64,000 nt of DNA from Arthrobacter roseus (lineage in GTDB: Bacteria > Actinomycetota > Actinomycetes > Actinomycetales > Micrococcaceae), in NCBI RefSeq assembly GCF_016907875.1, contig NZ_JAFBCU010000001.1, positions 1,302,001-1,366,000 on the forward strand, in the 5' to 3' direction. The notes under the pieces are model-generated. The model was not told the DNA's origin, did no database searches, and saw nothing but the letters and a program-made list of their open reading frames with translations. The translations under genes were made by a program, and so were the position numbers. This document shows positions 18,155 to 43,653 of the stretch, piece by piece; positions within the stretch are counted from its first letter, which is position 1; each line of letters begins with the position of its first letter.

Positions 18155-18961
18155 ATGACTTACCTCATTATTGGAGGCGCCGGCCGCACAGGCTCCCGTG
18201 TCCTTGATCGCCTGACAACTGCTACCTTGCCTGTCCGTTCGGCGTCACGCCGCACGGGTTTCGACTGGGACGACGACGAGACGTGGGGTGGCACTTTTCG
18301 TGATGTCACCGCCGCGTATGTTTGCTTCACCCCAGACCTGGCGTTCCCAGGGGTGCCAGAGAAGTTGGCAGCACTCGGACGGTTGGCTGCCGCCAGCGGT
18401 GTGGAGCGACTTGTTCTACTTTCGGGGCGAGGCGAGGAAGGTGCGCGCGCCAGTGAAGCAGCGCTTCGCGAAGGTGGGGTGCCAACTAACGTGCTGAGAT
18501 GCTCGTGGTTCCAGCAGAACTTCTCCGAACACTTTCTCGCAGGTCCGGTTCAGCGCGGGTGCCTACGCCTACCTGCCCCCGACGTCCCCGAAGCTTTCGT
18601 CGACCTCGACGACGTCGCGGACGCGGCCTTCGTTGCCTTGACACGAGGTGGGCCTGGCAACGCAACCTACGAGCTTTCTGGGCCTGAGCTTCTTTCTTTT
18701 GCCGACGCTGCAGCGATTTTGAGCGAAGCCCGCGGAGTCCCCGCGAGATTCGAAGCCGTCGATGTCTCCACTTTCGTGGAAGATCTGGCCACTGACGGAA
18801 TACCGGCGGAGGAAGCCGAACCCCTTGCACACCTTTTTACCGACATCTTGGACGGCCGTAATGCACATCTAGTGCATGGGGTTGAGCAGTTATTAGCACG
18901 GCCAGCTTCATCCTTGAGCTCATATGCACGACGAGCCGCCGCAGCAGGGGCCTGGTCGTGA
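18155..18961 (+). CDS. NAD(P)-binding NmrA-like atypical SDR
   Basis: The 268-residue protein starts MTYLIIGGAGRTGSRV, a Rossmann dinucleotide motif (GxxGxxG) at the N-terminus, and has the NmrA/NAD(P)H-binding layout with FVDLDDVADAAFVAL in the second half. Such proteins reduce quinones or sense NADP. The next gene overlaps it by 4 bp, and the AraC regulator is divergent. A role in detoxification or secondary metabolism is plausible but not shown. Confidence 0.87.
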   Translation: MTYLIIGGAGRTGSRVLDRLTTATLPVRSASRRTGFDWDDDETWGGTFRDVTAAYVCFTPDLAFPGVPEKLAALGRLAAASGVERLVLLSGRGEEGARASEAALREGGVPTNVLRCSWFQQNFSEHFLAGPVQRGCLRLPAPDVPEAFVDLDDVADAAFVALTRGGPGNATYELSGPELLSFADAAAILSEARGVPARFEAVDVSTFVEDLATDGIPAEEAEPLAHLFTDILDGRNAHLVHGVEQLLARPASSLSSYARRAAAAGAWS

Positions 18962-19419: not shown

Positions 19420-20277
19420 ATGCCGCGAACCGTCAAAGAGAATGTCGAAGCTGCGGAGTTGGCGGTATTCGCGCGCAAGGAGCTTTCTTTGGGTGCGGCG
19501 GCAGAGGCGGGTTTGACGGGCAGATTCGAATCAATCCGCACGGGAGGGTTGCGGGCAAGCATCGCAACCGCCGATCACTATGGTTTCCTCAACACCATTG
19601 AAGGCGTCACCGATCAATCAGCCGAAGCTCTGCCGGATGTGCTCAGAAGGTTTCCGGACTCGCACGAGCCAGTCATCATCGCAACGTTTCCATCTCGGAA
19701 CCTCGTTGAGTGGCTGCTTGACGAGGGTTACGAACAGGCCCCCGTTCGGCCTATTGCCTACCTATGCTCGGGTGCTGACTTCAACGCTGTGGAATTAAGC
19801 GCTGAGCAGTGGCAGATACGTGAAGTCTCAACCGAAACGGACGCTGCAGTCTTTAGGGATCTAATCGACGCCGGTTACGGAGCGTCAAGGGAAGTGGGTG
19901 CATTGATCCGGACGGAGCACGCCCTTCCGGCCATTCGTGGTTTTATCGCCTCGCGCAATGGGCAACCCCTGGCTGCGGCTGCCATGTCCCTGCACGCCGT
20001 GGGAGCCGTACTTGGCGGCGCTGCCACGCTCCCGGAAGCGCGAGGCGCGGGAGCACAGACTGCACTCCTTACGCATCGGCTCCGATTAGCGGAAGATATG
20101 GGCATGCCGTTGTCCACGGCAACCGCAGCTCCCGGAACGCCGAGCATTCGGAACCTGGCACAACTAGGCCTGACCGTCGTCGAACGAACAGCCTGGCGTT
20201 GCAGCCGTGCGATAAGGGTGCCGCCGGACGAGCGTGAAGCTTCGGTCACGGGGCGTCAATCGCATCGGCCGGGTTGA
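19420..20277 (+). CDS. GNAT family N-acetyltransferase (two-domain)
   Basis: The 285-residue protein has a C-terminal GNAT core (about 130-265), with GGAATLPEARGAGAQTALL as the acetyl-CoA loop and RNLAQLGLTVVER at the end, preceded by a second GNAT-like half. The length fits two-domain GNATs. Its last 32 bases overlap the 3' end of the WYL regulator gene on the opposite strand. The ribosome site is weak. The substrate is unknown. Confidence 0.82.
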   Translation: MPRTVKENVEAAELAVFARKELSLGAAAEAGLTGRFESIRTGGLRASIATADHYGFLNTIEGVTDQSAEALPDVLRRFPDSHEPVIIATFPSRNLVEWLLDEGYEQAPVRPIAYLCSGADFNAVELSAEQWQIREVSTETDAAVFRDLIDAGYGASREVGALIRTEHALPAIRGFIASRNGQPLAAAAMSLHAVGAVLGGAATLPEARGAGAQTALLTHRLRLAEDMGMPLSTATAAPGTPSIRNLAQLGLTVVERTAWRCSRAIRVPPDEREASVTGRQSHRPG

Positions 20278-21234
20278 TGATTGCTGCCTCGAGAAGTCTG
20301 TGACCTGATTCCTTCATCTTGAGGCGCATTGCTTCCGGCGAGCGAATGAAGAATGGAATATCCGCAGCCAGTAAATACACAGCCACCGTTTCGTAGGTAT
20401 CCGCTCCTGTGTGAACGACGCAAGAGTGCTCATCCAGAGGCTCAACGTAGACTGCGTCGATCGGAAACCGTTGCGCCACGTCGGAAGCCGGCGCCTTGAA
20501 GACCGCTTCAACGCGGTATGCGTATGGTGCGGTGGCAATGCTGTTGGCTGTGTATTGGGCCATGTCGATTCCGGGAGGCTGACGAGGCACAAAGTGCCTC
20601 GTCGTCGGTGAGTAGGTGCCGATACGGTCAATGCGTAGAGTCTGCCATTCACCGGCGTCTTGATTCCAGGCCACGAGGTACCAGAGGTAGTCATTCTGAA
20701 TGACCTGGTGAGGCTCCAATATCTGAGCAGGTTGCGTGTGGCCATGTGCCGACTCAGTGATTTTGACTTGAAGTCGCAGGCGACAGTACTTCGCGAGGTC
20801 TCGTATGGTCCGGGCCGACGTCGTCGGAATGGCGGACTGGTACGAGGCGACGTAGTTGTTGATGTCGTCCACCGCAGCCTTGTGCCTAGCGGGGAGCAGC
20901 CGGGAGAGTTTTTGGGCGAGCAACTCACGGTCAACTGACGATGGTTGCATCGACATAGCCGCCGACGACGACAATCCTGCCAAAAGTGCCACAACTTCGG
21001 CCTCGGTTGGCAGCAGCGGCGCTACCCTTCTGCCGGGACCAAGCTGGTATCCGCCGTGTGGGCCGGGGACGGATTCGATTCCGAAGCCGCTCTCTCTCTC
21101 AACGCGGAAATGAGCCTTCGAATGCTGCGGTCATTGACCCCTAGGCGATCCGCGAGTTCGCGTGAGCCAACCGGAACAGTGGTGCGTTGGAGTACCTCGA
21201 GCAGCTCAAAACTTCGCGCCAAGTATTCAGTCAC
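20246..21234 (-). pseudogene. WYL-domain transcriptional regulator, frameshifted in a CT repeat
   Basis: The N-terminal HTH starts at a GTG at 21234 (MTEYLARSFELLEVLQ, SRELADRLGVNDRSIRRLISAL). The frame is lost in a CT run at 21090-21100. Two bases out of frame the protein resumes (GFGIESVPGPHGGYQLG, then LLPTEAEVVALLAG) and continues through a WYL domain and C-terminal extension to 20246. Removing one CT unit would restore a single protein of about 330 residues. WYL regulators usually repress a divergent gene; here that is the oxidoreductase at 21327. It may be off by slippage, a pseudogene, or a base-call error in the repeat. Confidence 0.82.
21090..21100. repeat. CT dinucleotide tract at a frameshift
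   Basis: Eleven bases of alternating C and T, (CT)5C, lie in the coding part of the WYL regulator just after its HTH. Loss of one unit would reopen the frame. Dinucleotide tracts of this kind are prone to slippage. Confidence 0.85.
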
Positions 21235-21326
21235 GACCTCACTCTAGTAATAGACCCGGACGATCCGCCGCCGCATCTGTTGTTAACGTGGCGATACTGC
21301 CACCCCGATCTCGTAATGAGGAACAC

Positions 21327-22328
21327 ATGAAAGCAACACAAATATGCCTTGCCAGCCGCCCGACCGAGCAGGTCAGGCTTGATCATTTTCAAGTAGATGA
21401 TGTTGAGCTGCCTGCGCTCACCGATGGGACGGTGCTGGTCAAGAACACGGCCATGCAGCTGACATCGGTCATGGCCGATCTGATACGCGGCGAGGAGCTC
21501 CCCATGCCCCCTTACTCCGTTGGGCAGCCGCTGTGGGGCGCGGCAGTCGGCGTCGTTGAGCAAAGCAAAAGTCCTCGGTTCGCCCCAGGTGACGCGGTTC
21601 AAAGCATGAATGGATGGAGGACTCGCTTCGTGGCTCAGGCCGACGAGCTGTTTCCCGTCTCGACCAGTCACTTCCCGGGCCCGGAGGTGTTGCTCTGTCA
21701 GGGCCCGACTGCCTATCACGGGATGGTCGATATCGCAGGGGTCGGACCGGGGGATACGGTGTTCGTTACCGGGGCTGCTGGCGGTGTTGGTTCACTTGCC
21801 GGCCAGATTGCGCGCAAGCGTGGAGCCCATCGGGTTGTGGGGACGGCGGGCTCCGATGAGAAAGTCGCATGGCTCGTTGATGAGCTGGGTTTCGATGCAG
21901 CCTTCAACTACAAAACCCCCGGCATCGAGGAGTGGCTCACGGACCAGTTCCCTACGGGGTTCAGCGTCTTCTTCGACACCGTAGGTGGTGCGCAGTTTGA
22001 GATGGCGGTCCGTCATGCCGGCCAGAATGCGCGATTCGCCCTTTGCGGCACGCTCTCCGAGCAATTCGCCAAAAATGGGGCGGATCAACGGCCCCGATTC
22101 GACATCATGACGGGGATTCGCAAGCAACTGCAGATTCTTCCGTTCAGCACGTACCACACGCCAGAACAGATACACGCGTGGTCCCTGCATTACGCACAGT
22201 GGTTAGCCGAGGGCGATTTTCATTTTCCCCACACAACCATTGAGGGTGGGTTGTCCGCTGCTCGGGAAGCCCTCATCTCACTCATGCAGAGTAAGTACCG
22301 CGGAAATGTGATCGTCGAACTCAGCTAA
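21327..22328 (+). CDS. NADP-dependent medium-chain oxidoreductase (MDR, leukotriene B4 dehydrogenase/curcumin reductase-like)
   Basis: With the ATG at 21327 (ribosome site GAGGA) the protein has 333 residues. An upstream in-frame start would give 388 residues but would overlap the regulator gene and add non-homologous sequence. It has the MDR layout without zinc: VGPGDTVFVTGAAGGVGSLAGQIA is the nucleotide-binding loop (AAxGGVG) and FNYKTPGIEEWL follows. The family reduces enone double bonds with NADPH. It is divergent from the broken WYL regulator and so may be expressed without repression. Confidence 0.87.
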   Translation: MKATQICLASRPTEQVRLDHFQVDDVELPALTDGTVLVKNTAMQLTSVMADLIRGEELPMPPYSVGQPLWGAAVGVVEQSKSPRFAPGDAVQSMNGWRTRFVAQADELFPVSTSHFPGPEVLLCQGPTAYHGMVDIAGVGPGDTVFVTGAAGGVGSLAGQIARKRGAHRVVGTAGSDEKVAWLVDELGFDAAFNYKTPGIEEWLTDQFPTGFSVFFDTVGGAQFEMAVRHAGQNARFALCGTLSEQFAKNGADQRPRFDIMTGIRKQLQILPFSTYHTPEQIHAWSLHYAQWLAEGDFHFPHTTIEGGLSAAREALISLMQSKYRGNVIVELS

Positions 22329-22422
22329 ATCAGTATTGACCACTACGTCGCCACACACCACAACGGGGGATGAGAAGCGCACTGATGCGTCGAGCGCAGC
22401 AAGAGCAAGCCCGTAGGGTGTA

Positions 22423-23466
22423 GTGATGACGGCACGTATAGATAAGGCCCGACGTCTCTCCGACGTGCTCGCTGGGCTCGATGATGCCGGCGTGCGGAGG
22501 CTCATCGATGCTGCTGAGCCGATGGGCGTAGGCATTGGGGGAACGACCAAGACAGCCCGCATCGATGAAACGACTGTCTTTGTGAAACTGCTTCCACTGA
22601 CAAGCATCGAAGAGGCGAATCTAACCGCCACTGCTAGTCGAGTCCAGCTTCCCTTTACCTCCCACTATGGGATCGGAAGCCCTACCCACGCAGTCGGGCG
22701 AGAATTGGCGGCACATCAGGTGACCTCCGAGTGGGTTCAGATGGGAGCGGTGGATTTCTTCCCGCTTCTGCTCGGGTGGCGAGTCGTCGATCTGAAGTGT
22801 GAGGCAGACCTTAGCGAGTTCGACGGCGATGCTTCTCCACTCCAGTGGGGTGCATATTGGCCTCAGGTTCAGAGCAAACTCGCGGCGATGAGGGACGCGT
22901 CGAAAAGCATGGTGTTTTTCCTTGAGTACGTGCCCGAAACGCTGGGCGCATGGGTGCGCAGGAGTGTAGCTGGTGGCACTGGGGCAATCGTCTTCCCTGA
23001 TGTGGTCGATCAGCTCCTTGAAGCCACAGCATGGATGAACAGCCAAGGGTTTCAGCACTTCGATGTACATCCGGGGAACATCCTCCTACGAGAGGGCAGA
23101 CTGCTCTTCACGGACTTTGGCCTGGCGCTTCATCGCGAGTTCGACCTCACTCCGGAGGAAGAAGTATCCATGCTCACCCATGATGGCTTCGACCGTGATA
23201 CTGCCCTGATGCATCTGTTCCACTGGACGCTGTTCGAACTCGGCTATACCTCCGGTCCGCAGCGCCTGGCACTGTTGCGTGCTGCCGCCGCTGACCCTGT
23301 TACACCAGCGCTGGATCCAGTTCGTGTGGTACTTGGCCGGGGTGCTGACCTGATTGCTCAACATGCGAATGTCGCTGTCTATATAACCGAGATGTTCGGC
23401 GCCCTCATGCAGGATGCGTCCGCTACGCGGTACGACAGCTCTGGCTACAGGAACATTCAGCGATAA
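22423..23466 (+). CDS. Protein-kinase-fold protein of unknown role
   Basis: The 347-residue protein keeps key kinase-fold residues: a Lys in FVKLLP (about 47), the catalytic loop HFDVHPGNILL, and TDFGLAL as the DFG motif. The HxDxxxxN spacing resembles aminoglycoside phosphotransferases and small-molecule kinases more than Hanks kinases. GTG (22423) and ATG (22426) are adjacent possible starts. It is not in an operon. The substrate is unknown and could be a small molecule or protein. Confidence 0.65.
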   Translation: MMTARIDKARRLSDVLAGLDDAGVRRLIDAAEPMGVGIGGTTKTARIDETTVFVKLLPLTSIEEANLTATASRVQLPFTSHYGIGSPTHAVGRELAAHQVTSEWVQMGAVDFFPLLLGWRVVDLKCEADLSEFDGDASPLQWGAYWPQVQSKLAAMRDASKSMVFFLEYVPETLGAWVRRSVAGGTGAIVFPDVVDQLLEATAWMNSQGFQHFDVHPGNILLREGRLLFTDFGLALHREFDLTPEEEVSMLTHDGFDRDTALMHLFHWTLFELGYTSGPQRLALLRAAAADPVTPALDPVRVVLGRGADLIAQHANVAVYITEMFGALMQDASATRYDSSGYRNIQR

Positions 23467-23543
23467 CTACGTAACTGGTTGTGATGTGGTTCTATCAGTT
23501 GCGGTGAATTCGGACAGCGGCGAGTGCCACTAGCGTTGTCGAA

Positions 23544-24670: not shown

Positions 24671-24774
24671 CTTTATCACAACGGTCCCCTTGCGGCACGA
24701 GGGCATGGCGCCCGCGGATGCCGTCCCGCAGGAAGAGCGACTCACGACTCGACATCAAGCGATAGGCTAAGCCG

Positions 24775-25238
24775 ATGCCTACCCGGCCAGAATCCAAGCC
24801 CCGTCGTCCCGATGTGACCGAAACCGAACTTGTAGGCGGCATCGAAAAACGCAGGCCCAACGTCGTGGAGTATGACTCAAATTGCCATCCATTTTTGACC
24901 TACAGCTGGTTCGCATTGAACGAGCATTGGGCAACGAAGCTTTATCAATTGAACATGCCGGATCGACGTCGGTCCCAGGGCTGGCGGCAAAACCCATTAT
25001 TGACATTCTCGCGACGGTCGCAGACATCACCGCAGAGGAAGATTATCTCAATCCCCTTCTGAAAGCTGGATATGAGCTACGAGACGAACCCGCGGACAGA
25101 GAGCTCTATGCTCGGACCAAACGTGAACTCCTAACCCATGACTGGACTGATATGAATGCCTACGCTGCGGCCAAGACCGAAGTGATCGAAGGCATGCTCT
25201 CACGCGCCGGCGCCGCTCTTTTCCGGGCAACGACCTAG
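24775..25238 (+). pseudogene. GrpB/Dephospho-CoA-kinase-like (UPF0157) protein with two lesions
   Basis: The first frame reads PDVTETELVGGIEKRRPNVVEYDSN, the start of a GrpB-family protein. Near 24882 one G seems to be missing: adding a base after AATTG would give the expected NWPSIFDL and join the second frame, which continues with IEHAGSTSVPGLAAKPIIDI. About 35 residues of the conserved HVH region are then absent, because YELRDEPADR runs directly into the C-terminal helix (RELLTHDWTDMNAYAAAK). One frameshift plus one in-frame deletion argue against simple sequencing error. Confidence 0.8.
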
Positions 25239-25279: not shown

Positions 25280-25870
25280 TCACGACTCCCTAAACCCCTG
25301 CGCTATATCCTCGACCTGTTCACTGTACGACTTCCACCAAGTCGAGTCTCCTGGTGCCATGTTGTCGTTGCCATTTCGCAGTCCAGCGGTCCCATCGATG
25401 AGCTCGCGGACTATATCGGCATGTCCGGTATGCCTATGAGTTTCAGCGATCACGTGTATCAGGATCTGGTGCAGTGTGACCTCTTTACGGGCATCGCTCC
25501 ACCACGGCACGTGACCAGCGGAGTCCAATGACAGCGCCTTGATGGTGGCGTCGGAATGCGCCCAGATGCGGCGATATAGGTCCACGACCCAGTCACGGGA
25601 TTGATCACGAGTTGCCCACATGTCAGAGTTCGTGTCGGCATCGTCATCTGTCCAAGGCAGCAGCTCATCGAACGGTCGTCCGAAAGTCTCGCCGAAATAT
25701 CCAGCTTCGACGCCAGCCAAGTGCTTAATCAAACCGAGCAAATTGGTGCCAGTTTGAACTAGGGGACGCCGGAGGTCATACTCCGAAAGCCCTTCGAGCT
25801 TCCACAATGCATCCTCCCGGCCACTCTGTAGGTATCGATGAAGGTCTGCCTTCGGATTGGAGTCGATCAT
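25280..25870 (-). CDS. DinB-family (DUF664) putative metal-dependent hydrolase/transferase
   Basis: The open frame extends upstream, but the ATG at 25870, with GGAAAG before it, gives the usual size (196 residues) and begins MIDSNPKADLHRYLQSGRED. DinB four-helix-bundle metal ligands are seen as LIKHLAGVEAGYF (first His), HQILIHVIAETHRHTGHADIVRE (His cluster). Family members include thiol-dependent transferases (bacillithiol and mycothiol types). It is a single gene in a zone of broken genes but looks intact. Confidence 0.83.
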   Translation of the reverse strand: MIDSNPKADLHRYLQSGREDALWKLEGLSEYDLRRPLVQTGTNLLGLIKHLAGVEAGYFGETFGRPFDELLPWTDDDADTNSDMWATRDQSRDWVVDLYRRIWAHSDATIKALSLDSAGHVPWWSDARKEVTLHQILIHVIAETHRHTGHADIVRELIDGTAGLRNGNDNMAPGDSTWWKSYSEQVEDIAQGFRES

Positions 25871-26086
25871 GTTGGACAGCTTTCCAGAGGCAACATGGCT
25901 GGCGCAAGACGCCTGACTGCTCGCCGCACGTCGAATGTGCGGAAGGAACATGGTTGCCGCAGGTGAGTTTCTGGTAGCCGCCGAAGGCGTTCCCAGACCT
26001 GGTGCGTGCACGGTCAGCAATGGTTGACAGGGTTGCAAGCTCAGCCGAAGCGTGAATGCATGGCTTCTTTCGAATCTCCCTATGGC

Positions 26087-26491
26087 ATGACCCTTTAACT
26101 CCAAGTAGGGAATGTTGAGCAGGCGCGCCGGTACTACAGTTCTCTTCTTGGGAGAGAGCCTCTGTTTGAGCCGCACGATGACTTTCTGGAATGGCCGGTG
26201 GTCGCGGGCTCGGAGGTCTGGATCCAAGCCGTTCGCGTGACAGGCGAAGTCCGGCCGCTTTTGAACCGGATCCGTTTCAGCGTCCGCGATGTCCGGGCAG
26301 CGCACGCTAGTCTCGTCGAGAACGACGTCGAGGTTACTTCCGTGACGTCCCTGCCTGGCGTAGTTGCTTTCGTTGATTTAGCTGACCCCTGGGGAAACCA
26401 GCTTGGATATTACGAAGACTTGGCTCCCTCCAGTGAGCAACCGATCGCCGGAGGCAGCGTTCACGACGAGTCCCTTTTCGTTACCGACTGA
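26087..26491 (+). pseudogene. VOC (glyoxalase/bleomycin-resistance) family protein with stop at codon 4
   Basis: From an ATG at 26087 the frame reads MTL, a TAA stop at 26096, then LQVGNVEQARRYYSSLLG and FRFSV-like strand RIRFSVRDVRAAHASL and DPWGNQLGYYE, a complete VOC protein of about 134 residues. A single base change (for example AAA to TAA) at codon 4 would explain it. A GTG at 26198 could start a shorter product, but it would lose the first beta-alpha-beta half. VOC proteins bind metal and act on small toxic molecules. Confidence 0.7.
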
Positions 26492-37130: not shown

Positions 37131-38006
37131 ATGGCTCAAGATCAGCAACCGGTCTCCACTGGTATCAACGAACCTGCGGCTTCGCGGATAGTTTCTGACG
37201 GTTCGACCGCCAGCGGGCCGGTGACTGTGCTGAAACTGACCGCTGCGATTTTGGTCTCCGCGGCCGGGTTTGCCCTCTTTGCTCTGCAAATGCCGATTCT
37301 GGGCTACAGCATGCTCGGCGCCGCGTTGGTGCTCGCCGGTATCGCGGACCGGGCTCTGCTGCGGGATCTGGCTCTCATCGCGTTTGGGGTCACGGTGATG
37401 AGCTTGGTGCCCATCACCACGGACATCGCGATGTCGCACATGTTAATTATGGGCACTGCGATGACGCTCGCCGTCGCAGTGCCGTACCTGGTCTCACGTT
37501 ATGGCTACGGTGACCACGCAATTCGGTTCCCAGTCCGTACAGGGCAGCGTTGGACGCGGTTGGAGAAGTGGTATCTGCCCGCCGTCGTCGTCATTGGCTA
37601 CCTTCTTCTGCCCGTCTACATGATCAATACTGGCGTCTATGAGAATTGGCCGGCAGTTTCCGAGCCCGACGGCGTCGCCCGACTTTTCTTGGGCACCAAC
37701 GTGCTGGGTATCTGGGACGAGCTGTTCTTCATTTGCACAACTTTCGCGCTGCTGCGCCGCCATTTTCCCGATTGGCTGGCCAATGTGCTGCAGGCCGTGC
37801 TTTTCACCTCGTTCTTGTGGGAGCTGGGCTTTCACAGCTGGGGTCCGGCCTTCATCTACCTTTTTGCTTTGGTGCAGGGCTACATCTTTAAACTCACCAA
37901 GTCGCTGTCCTACATTGTGTGTGTGCACCTCCTGTTCGACTTCGTCTTATTCCTGGTGCTGATTCATGCGCATAACCGATCTTGGCTAGACATTTTCATC
38001 TACTAG
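37131..38006 (+). CDS. CPBP-family intramembrane protease-like protein with altered motif
   Basis: The ATG at 37131 with AGAAGAGG before it is preferred over the ATG at 37113. The 291-residue protein has about eight membrane helices. Three CPBP-like motifs are visible: GIWDELFFICTTFALLRR (family EExxxR, here DELFF without the Arg in place), then ELGFHSWGPAF with His, and VHLLFDFVLF (family HxxxN, here Asp). The changed residues make protease activity doubtful. The GH15 gene follows 22 bp later and may be cotranscribed. Confidence 0.65.
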   Translation: MAQDQQPVSTGINEPAASRIVSDGSTASGPVTVLKLTAAILVSAAGFALFALQMPILGYSMLGAALVLAGIADRALLRDLALIAFGVTVMSLVPITTDIAMSHMLIMGTAMTLAVAVPYLVSRYGYGDHAIRFPVRTGQRWTRLEKWYLPAVVVIGYLLLPVYMINTGVYENWPAVSEPDGVARLFLGTNVLGIWDELFFICTTFALLRRHFPDWLANVLQAVLFTSFLWELGFHSWGPAFIYLFALVQGYIFKLTKSLSYIVCVHLLFDFVLFLVLIHAHNRSWLDIFIY

Positions 38007-42364: not shown

Positions 42365-43648
42365 AGGTCCGCGTAGCGGTGTGTCTGCCGGGCCGGGAAC
42401 CGCCGTCCCGGGCCCTGTGAGCTATGGAGCTGACATTGAGCGAACGCAGGGTCTTTACGAAAGCAACCGCCACCCGCTACGGACGGTCGGATCGGGCGGG
42501 TAAGAAGATCATTCTGGATGAGTTATGCGCATCGACCGGCTGGCACCGCGATCACGCCCGCCGGGTATTGCGGCAGTCGCTGGTGCTCAGAGCCGTCAAA
42601 GCACGGCCACCGCGGCCACCGGTCTACGGGGATGCGGTCATCGACGCCTTACGGTTCTGCTGGGCGGTGCAGGGAACCGCCTGCGGTCGGTTGCTGGCGG
42701 CGGCGCTGCCGGACGTGGTGCCAAGGTCGCGCCGGCTCGGAGAGCTTGACGTTGATGATGCCACGGCGGCTGCGTTGCTGCGGATTTCCCCGGCCACGAT
42801 CGACCGGCGGCTCAAAGCCGACCGGGCGAAAATGGATCCGCGAGGCCGGTCCCATACCAAGCCCGGCACGCTTTTGAAGGACTCGATCCCGATGCGGACC
42901 TGGGCCGAATGGAACGATGCCGTGCCGGGATTTGTCGAGATTGACTTGGTCGGTCACGAAGGCGGAAATTCGAAGGGAGAGTTCTGTTTCACGCTGGACA
43001 TTACTGACATCGCCACCGGCTGGACCGAAACCCGCTCAGTGCGCAATAAGGCGCAGAAATGGGTCTTCGCAGCGATCAAAGACGCCACCGCCGCGTTCCC
43101 GTTTCCGATCCTCGGACTCGATTCTGACAACGGGAGCGAATTCATCAACTGGGAGCTGTTGCGCTGGTGCGAGCAGGAGAAACTGACCTTCACCAGGTCC
43201 CGGTCAGGGAACAAGAACGATGGCGCGCATTTGGAGCAGAAGAACTGGCACATCGTCCGCCAGACCGTAGGTTACCACCGCTATGATACCGCCGGGGAAC
43301 TGGACCTGCTGAACCGGATCTGGATGCTGCAGCGGCTGGCGACCAACCATTTCGCGCCCCAGCAGAAACTCATCTCGAAGGAACGCCACGGCTCGAAGCT
43401 CACCAAGAAGTACGACAAGCCCTCCACCCCGTACCAGCGCGTCCTCGCTGATAAAGGCACCGTTCTGAAGAAGACCAAAACGAAGCTGACACGGGAAAAC
43501 AAACCACTGAACCCGGCAGCGATTCAACGACAAATCCAAGCGCTCACAGCTGAACTTCTCACCCTGACCACCTCAAAAAGAGGACCAAAAACGCAACTAG
43601 CTATCCGGACAGAATCAAATGATTCCGCGAATCAACTCAGCCGGACCT
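42365..43648 (+). mobile_element. Insertion sequence with rve-type transposase, ends uncertain
   Basis: A single transposase gene with an integrase core fills the element. A short inverted repeat, AGGTCCG at 42365-42371 and CGGACCT at 43642-43648, may mark the ends, but the transposase stop codon (43651-43653) lies just beyond, so the true right end could be further out. No direct repeat was seen. It resembles the ISNCY-type group (ISDol1-like) in gene size, but that placement is a guess. Confidence 0.65.
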
Positions 43649-43653
43649 CTTGA
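42424..43653 (+). CDS. Transposase with integrase (rve/DDE) core
   Basis: The 409-residue protein has an N-terminal HTH region (SERRVFTKATATRYG, then GWHRDHARRVLRQSL), followed by an rve core with FVEIDLVGHEGG and CFTLDITDIATGW (first Asp), LGLDSDNGSEFIN (second Asp) and SRSGNKNDGAHLEQKNW (Glu). The reading frame is intact. A transposase of this kind inserts its own element using a DDE mechanism. Confidence 0.9.
   Translation: MELTLSERRVFTKATATRYGRSDRAGKKIILDELCASTGWHRDHARRVLRQSLVLRAVKARPPRPPVYGDAVIDALRFCWAVQGTACGRLLAAALPDVVPRSRRLGELDVDDATAAALLRISPATIDRRLKADRAKMDPRGRSHTKPGTLLKDSIPMRTWAEWNDAVPGFVEIDLVGHEGGNSKGEFCFTLDITDIATGWTETRSVRNKAQKWVFAAIKDATAAFPFPILGLDSDNGSEFINWELLRWCEQEKLTFTRSRSGNKNDGAHLEQKNWHIVRQTVGYHRYDTAGELDLLNRIWMLQRLATNHFAPQQKLISKERHGSKLTKKYDKPSTPYQRVLADKGTVLKKTKTKLTRENKPLNPAAIQRQIQALTAELLTLTTSKRGPKTQLAIRTESNDSANQLSRTS

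Follow-up and report, generated by a model that had tools for sequence, protein, structure and literature searches.

A probable strand-slippage frameshift in a WYL regulator gene divergent from an oxidoreductase gene in Arthrobacter roseus

Characterised WYL regulators act in both signs: DriD and PafBC are activators, and BrxR and CapW are repressors. Most, not all, members of the HTH-WYL(-WCX) group carry the WCX domain. In Mycobacterium smegmatis, SiwR activates its neighbouring genes (PMC10693628). Switching by simple repeats is also known, through a CT repeat in oipA of Helicobacter pylori (PMC10564699) and through homopolymers in the actinobacterium Mycobacterium tuberculosis (PMC12817950, PMC11898584); both precedents speak for phase variation at the locus described below. 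NucS is reported to be unable to correct indels (PMC8228993). Among 12 of the 13 papers matched by a literature search, none names a phase-variable WYL regulator in its title or at the beginning of its abstract.

Here, we describe a WYL regulator gene of Arthrobacter roseus that is split at a short CT tract. The window is the whole stretch of DNA that was analysed, 64,000 nucleotides long, and its numbering is used for the features of the locus, which are the following:

21090 to 21100, no strand assigned: (CT)5C tract; the coding (minus) strand reads G(AG)5, with two extra bases relative to the orthologues.
21022 to 21234, minus strand: truncated HTH frame of 70 aa with a GTG start, in which the HTH helices are followed by about 20 out-of-frame residues up to the stop; the wing, WYL and C-terminal parts are missing.
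20246 to 21085, minus strand: WYL and C-terminal part in another frame, open to its stop; the first ATG, GTG or TTG is at 20992.
21235 to 21326, no strand assigned: intergenic region common to the divergent pair, holding a block of 24 bp that the orthologues share unchanged; candidate operator or promoter.
21327 to 22328, plus strand: divergent oxidoreductase, a medium-chain reductase with ADH_N_2 and ADH_zinc_N; frame intact.

The HTH part and the WYL part of a single minus-strand regulator lie in different frames, and the tract forms the junction between them. The original prediction had proposed this arrangement, and it is confirmed for the frames as well as for the tract, with Pfam matches in both parts: in the HTH frame (21022-21234), positions 1-41 of the 55 in the HTH_11 profile are matched, and the WYL domain of the window scores 38.5 bits, above the Pfam cut-off of 21.8. 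Upstream of GGC-TTC, the WYL frame stays open for 14 codons; its first possible start (ATG, GTG or TTG) is at 20992, and directly after the tract it reads GFGIESVPGPHGGYQLG, the very peptide that had been predicted. The orientation and the open frame of the divergent oxidoreductase from 21327 were also found as described. Scanning of both strands shows that the tract, CTCTCTCTCTC, is the sole match in the window; it is expected 0.03 times per window, and at least one copy occurs in 3 of 100 dinucleotide shuffles. The other runs of at least four dinucleotide units in the window are (GC)4 at 18443 and 63773 and (TG)5 at 37916, and (CT)5C, the site of the lesion, is the longest dinucleotide tract of all.

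A search of genome contigs returned 11 loci, one of them close, namely L004 from Arthrobacter sp. H35-MC1, whose identity with the WYL part is 79% and in which the regulator is one unbroken 340-aa frame from the HTH through to the C-terminus. Among 395 sampled genomes of the family, the orthologous regulator is found in the H35-MC1 genome (G169) and in G127 (locus L016), and in both it is intact and divergent from the orthologous oxidoreductase gene. L004 and L016 are ~99% identical and thus count as roughly one independent witness. When aligned with their DNA, the window is longer by two bases at the tract; columns 1-977 are otherwise free of gaps, and beyond them the C-terminal tails of the window and the orthologues diverge. 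At the junction, the orthologues carry AAAAGAGG, and the tract is absent. Judged by this alignment, the regulator gene of the window has a frame-breaking indel relative to its intact orthologues. The expectation that removal of one CT unit would give one continuous protein is borne out by these unbroken orthologues, which are shorter by two bases at the tract. Three residues separate the last Leu of the recognition helix from the Gly before the wing in all of the 40 homologous loci examined (39 counted by a pattern that allows 2-4 residues and that a frame-broken copy would escape, and L025 by eye), and the longest AG or CT run over 39 measured 36-base stretches of homologous loci is 7 nt (L007). 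In the one other genome of the genus that was covered (G001), both genes lack an orthologue-level match: the best WYL match is 28% identical, and no oxidoreductase match appears at E 1e-70.

The L004 regulator matches HTH_11 over its full length (1-55 of 55, above the cut-off), and its WYL domain reaches 44.7 bits against the cut-off of 21.8; its WCX match of 20.5 bits falls below the cut-off of 23.9, and that of the relative L047, at 35.9 bits, lies above it. The AlphaFold model of the orthologue (mean pLDDT 76, pTM 0.50), which served solely to place the break, places a helix at residues 35-48, followed by strands at 52-55 and 61-64. According to this model, the break would fall at about residues 46-48, at the end of the recognition helix; the stub would keep three helices and lose the wing and everything beyond it. 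In a Foldseek search with the orthologue model, the best matches are DriD and PafBC, followed by the weaker BrxR and CapW; TM-scores among the 30 matches listed are 0.24-0.39, normalised by query, and the matches thus give the fold class only. A phmmer search with the orthologue found no WYL structure at E 0.01. Considering that the activators DriD and PafBC lead the structural matches and that the repressors BrxR and CapW match less well, the term repressor in the original prediction was a guess. An obligatory repressor role was rejected, because WYL regulators of both signs match structurally.

We consider a recent, probably one-off slippage frameshift that disables the WYL regulator to be the best explanation, with a probability of about 0.66. 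In the mechanism we propose, an HTH-WYL regulator gene, the partner of a divergent NAD(P)H-dependent medium-chain oxidoreductase, would recently have been disabled when a short AG/CT tract, located where the DNA-recognition helix ends, grew by one dinucleotide unit. The loop would have arisen through strand slippage at replication, and the actinobacterial NucS, to judge from the literature, would leave such loops unrepaired. Slippage is the presumed natural cause of the two-base gain, because exactly one dinucleotide unit differs in a dinucleotide tract, and because NucS is present and a MutS_V match is absent. Indeed, the A. roseus genome gave a NucS match (the same search is positive in 7 of 14 control genomes) and no MutS_V match (positive in 11 of 14 control genomes). 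With NucS present and MutS without a match, slippage loops would escape mismatch repair. Of the earlier interpretation, the single protein, the one-unit difference in the tract and slippage as its natural cause stand; the reversible switch is not supported, and the repressor is unproven. The product would now be a 70-residue HTH stub without the wing and the WYL domain. The absence of the wing, WYL and C-terminal parts points to loss of regulator function, and the regulation of the oxidoreductase is thus probably lost as well, with expression going up or down according to the sign of the regulator. The tract would be a chance mutational hot spot and no evolved switch, and we infer the absence of a selected switch; back-slippage is physically possible, at a rate that is probably low. 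One point stands against the one-off event: a contingency locus, too, would carry its lesion in precisely this place, the longest dinucleotide tract that the window contains.

Against L004 and L016, dN/dS is 0.064 and 0.071 for the WYL part (275 codons) and 0.183 and 0.218 for the HTH part (40 codons), and against L004 it is 0.100 for the oxidoreductase (333 codons); dS is near saturation (pS ~0.7), which makes these ratios rough, such that they reveal long-run purifying selection and leave the break undatable. The WYL frame contains no further stop, and 99 of the 2511 possible single substitutions in the WYL part would create one. The break is probably recent, since the detached WYL part is open and has evolved under purifying selection. 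An open, constrained WYL part fits a switch and a sequencing error as well as a recent break. The higher dN/dS of the HTH part (0.18-0.22, 40 codons) could mean that constraint was relaxed before the break.

The other explanations need to be weighed against this frameshift. It is conceivable that the cells carry an orthologue-like length and an intact regulator, and that the two bases stem from assembly or sequencing; the rest of the gene looks functional, and a two-base length miscall in a dinucleotide tract is plausible. We regard such an error as unlikely, because the assembly consists of a single contig with 99.99% completeness and 0.63% contamination, because the window contains long open ORFs of, for example, 1477, 817 and 741 aa, and because base-calling errors are rarer in dinucleotide tracts than in homopolymers, although these are general points, not specific to the tract. 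Alternatively, the split gene may still be productive, either through slippage of the ribosome or during transcription on the AG repeat, which would restore some full-length regulator, or through separate re-initiation of the WYL part. The repeat would allow re-pairing after slippage, and a GTG lies at 20992, about 30 bases past the stop of the HTH frame; however, the orthologues have neither repeat nor split, and a start at 20992 would omit the first 31 WYL-frame residues after the tract and the entire HTH, which makes a productive split gene very improbable.

Reversible phase variation, in which slippage of the tract toggles the WYL regulator so that cells differ in oxidoreductase expression, gains from the difference of exactly one repeat unit in a gene that is otherwise intact and under purifying selection, and from the missing MutS match. 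Nevertheless, we hold it to be improbable. The tract is short (5.5 units) and is missing in the orthologues, with no AG or CT run above 7 nt in the 39 measured homologous loci; the gene is the regulator of one metabolic-type enzyme and of no surface structure, and one tract state is known for the locus. Furthermore, the genome holds two such tracts, near chance: 2 copies of (CT)5C in 3.08 Mb (the CT type alone was counted) against ~1.4 extrapolated from the window-shuffle mean, and an enrichment of the tract in the genome was thus rejected. The second copy is inside an open 421-aa ORF, transporter-like by eye, and the (TG)5 tract at 37916 is likewise inside an open frame; because the other tracts break no frame, nothing suggests that this genome switches genes via dinucleotide tracts. 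The claim of a classic slippage switch is therefore not upheld, the tract being short, not kept across orthologues and near chance in its genomic count. If tract lengths were to vary, the locus would be a phase-variable WYL regulator. The wider proposition, a MutS-less actinobacterium that switches a WYL regulator and a divergent oxidoreductase by slippage of a coding CT tract, and with it a WYL regulon under phase variation and a contingency locus of the dinucleotide type in the phylum, appears more doubtful still.

The split gene lies in a rare accessory unit. The oxidoreductase resembles the curcumin reductase CurA (197 of 440 bits) and leukotriene B4 dehydrogenase (129 of 580 bits), in both cases far below the cut-offs. 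Matches to it at E 1e-70 or better occur in 4 of 395 family genomes (its own, G127, G169 and G221), and among 396 genomes of the order, its own alone has a match at E 1e-80; the regulator is found at E 1e-40 or better in 2 of 23 genomes in the genus of G127. G221, too, has the oxidoreductase gene (56% identity) next to a divergent WYL gene, the latter more distant at 29% identity. Among plasmid records, the only matches are three weak ones from haloarchaea, and they cover just part of the oxidoreductase. At the DNA level, the window matches G127 and G169 over 20300-22332 at 74%, and the next gene, 22374-23479, matches a different part of G169 at 83%; since the pair and the next gene match separate parts of G169, the area is a mosaic of accessory genes. 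In the G127 oxidoreductase (L046), an internal TAG stands at the position of a Trp of the L004 protein; the frame is otherwise open and the regulator beside it is intact, so the pair is dispensable elsewhere too.

In the intergenic region, 73 of 104 columns are identical between the window and L004, including the 24-bp identical block, and a run as long as this block arises in 25 of 20,000 column shuffles. The block, GCCACGTTAACAACAGATGCGGCG on the regulator coding strand, contains GTTAAC and is surrounded by sequence of ~70% identity; it is a candidate operator or promoter. No sigma-70-like promoter was detected at 20900-21500, and the one terminator-like site there is within shuffle expectation. 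The window gave no tRNA and no Rfam match.

The decayed gene near the pair lies 3.5 kb off, on the plus strand at 24770-25238. It is a GrpB-family remnant that keeps profile positions 15-75 and 121-158 of 159, with ~45 lost, and its presumed start, judged by eye, is in another frame; this truncation and the out-of-frame start indicate that genes decay in this area. The following ORF (25280-26305, minus strand) has a mycothiol-S-transferase/DinB domain in its C-terminal half, and its listed start adds ~150 residues outside the domain. The ORF at 42424-43653 on the plus strand carries an integrase core (rve) domain and probably encodes an insertion-sequence transposase. From 13103 to 46815, a simple ORF picker finds few long ORFs, and the likely genes are separated by many gaps, with the window ends denser; this part looks like a variable accessory region. 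At 9472-9840 of L004, Arthrobacter sp. H35-MC1 has a long (CT/AG)n repeat, far longer than the (CT)5C tract, which encodes an SL dipeptide run.

As a frameshift of this kind, the locus would add one more regulator lost via a small repeat, here in a genome where NucS is present and MutS is not detectable; with a single lesion in a gene that otherwise looks functional, it makes a neat natural example. Among known regulators, it is closest to the HTH-WYL-WCX class of PafBC, SiwR and DriD, with which the orthologue shares the order HTH_11 and WYL; the C-terminal stretch that follows gives a weak WCX match, below the Pfam cut-off. SiwR, too, controls an adjacent gene unit (PMC10693628), and control of the oxidoreductase here is putative. 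Unlike in these three proteins, the gene in the window is split, and the sequence relation to them is distant. BrxR and CapW, the WYL repressors of defence systems, share the HTH-WYL fold as weaker Foldseek matches; their neighbours are anti-phage systems, whereas the partner here is an oxidoreductase. Among repeat-borne frameshifts, oipA of H. pylori is similar in that a CT tract in the 5' coding part shifts the frame by gain or loss of a unit; however, the oipA tract is recurrent, and its counts vary widely over hundreds of isolates (PMC10564699), whereas the orthologues here are tract-free and one state is known. The glpK and ESX-1 loci of M. tuberculosis are likewise actinobacterial frameshifts in simple repeats, in a phylum with NucS (PMC12817950, PMC11898584, PMC8228993), but they involve homopolymers, many independent events and demonstrated reversibility, whereas the A. 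roseus regulator shows one event in a dinucleotide tract.
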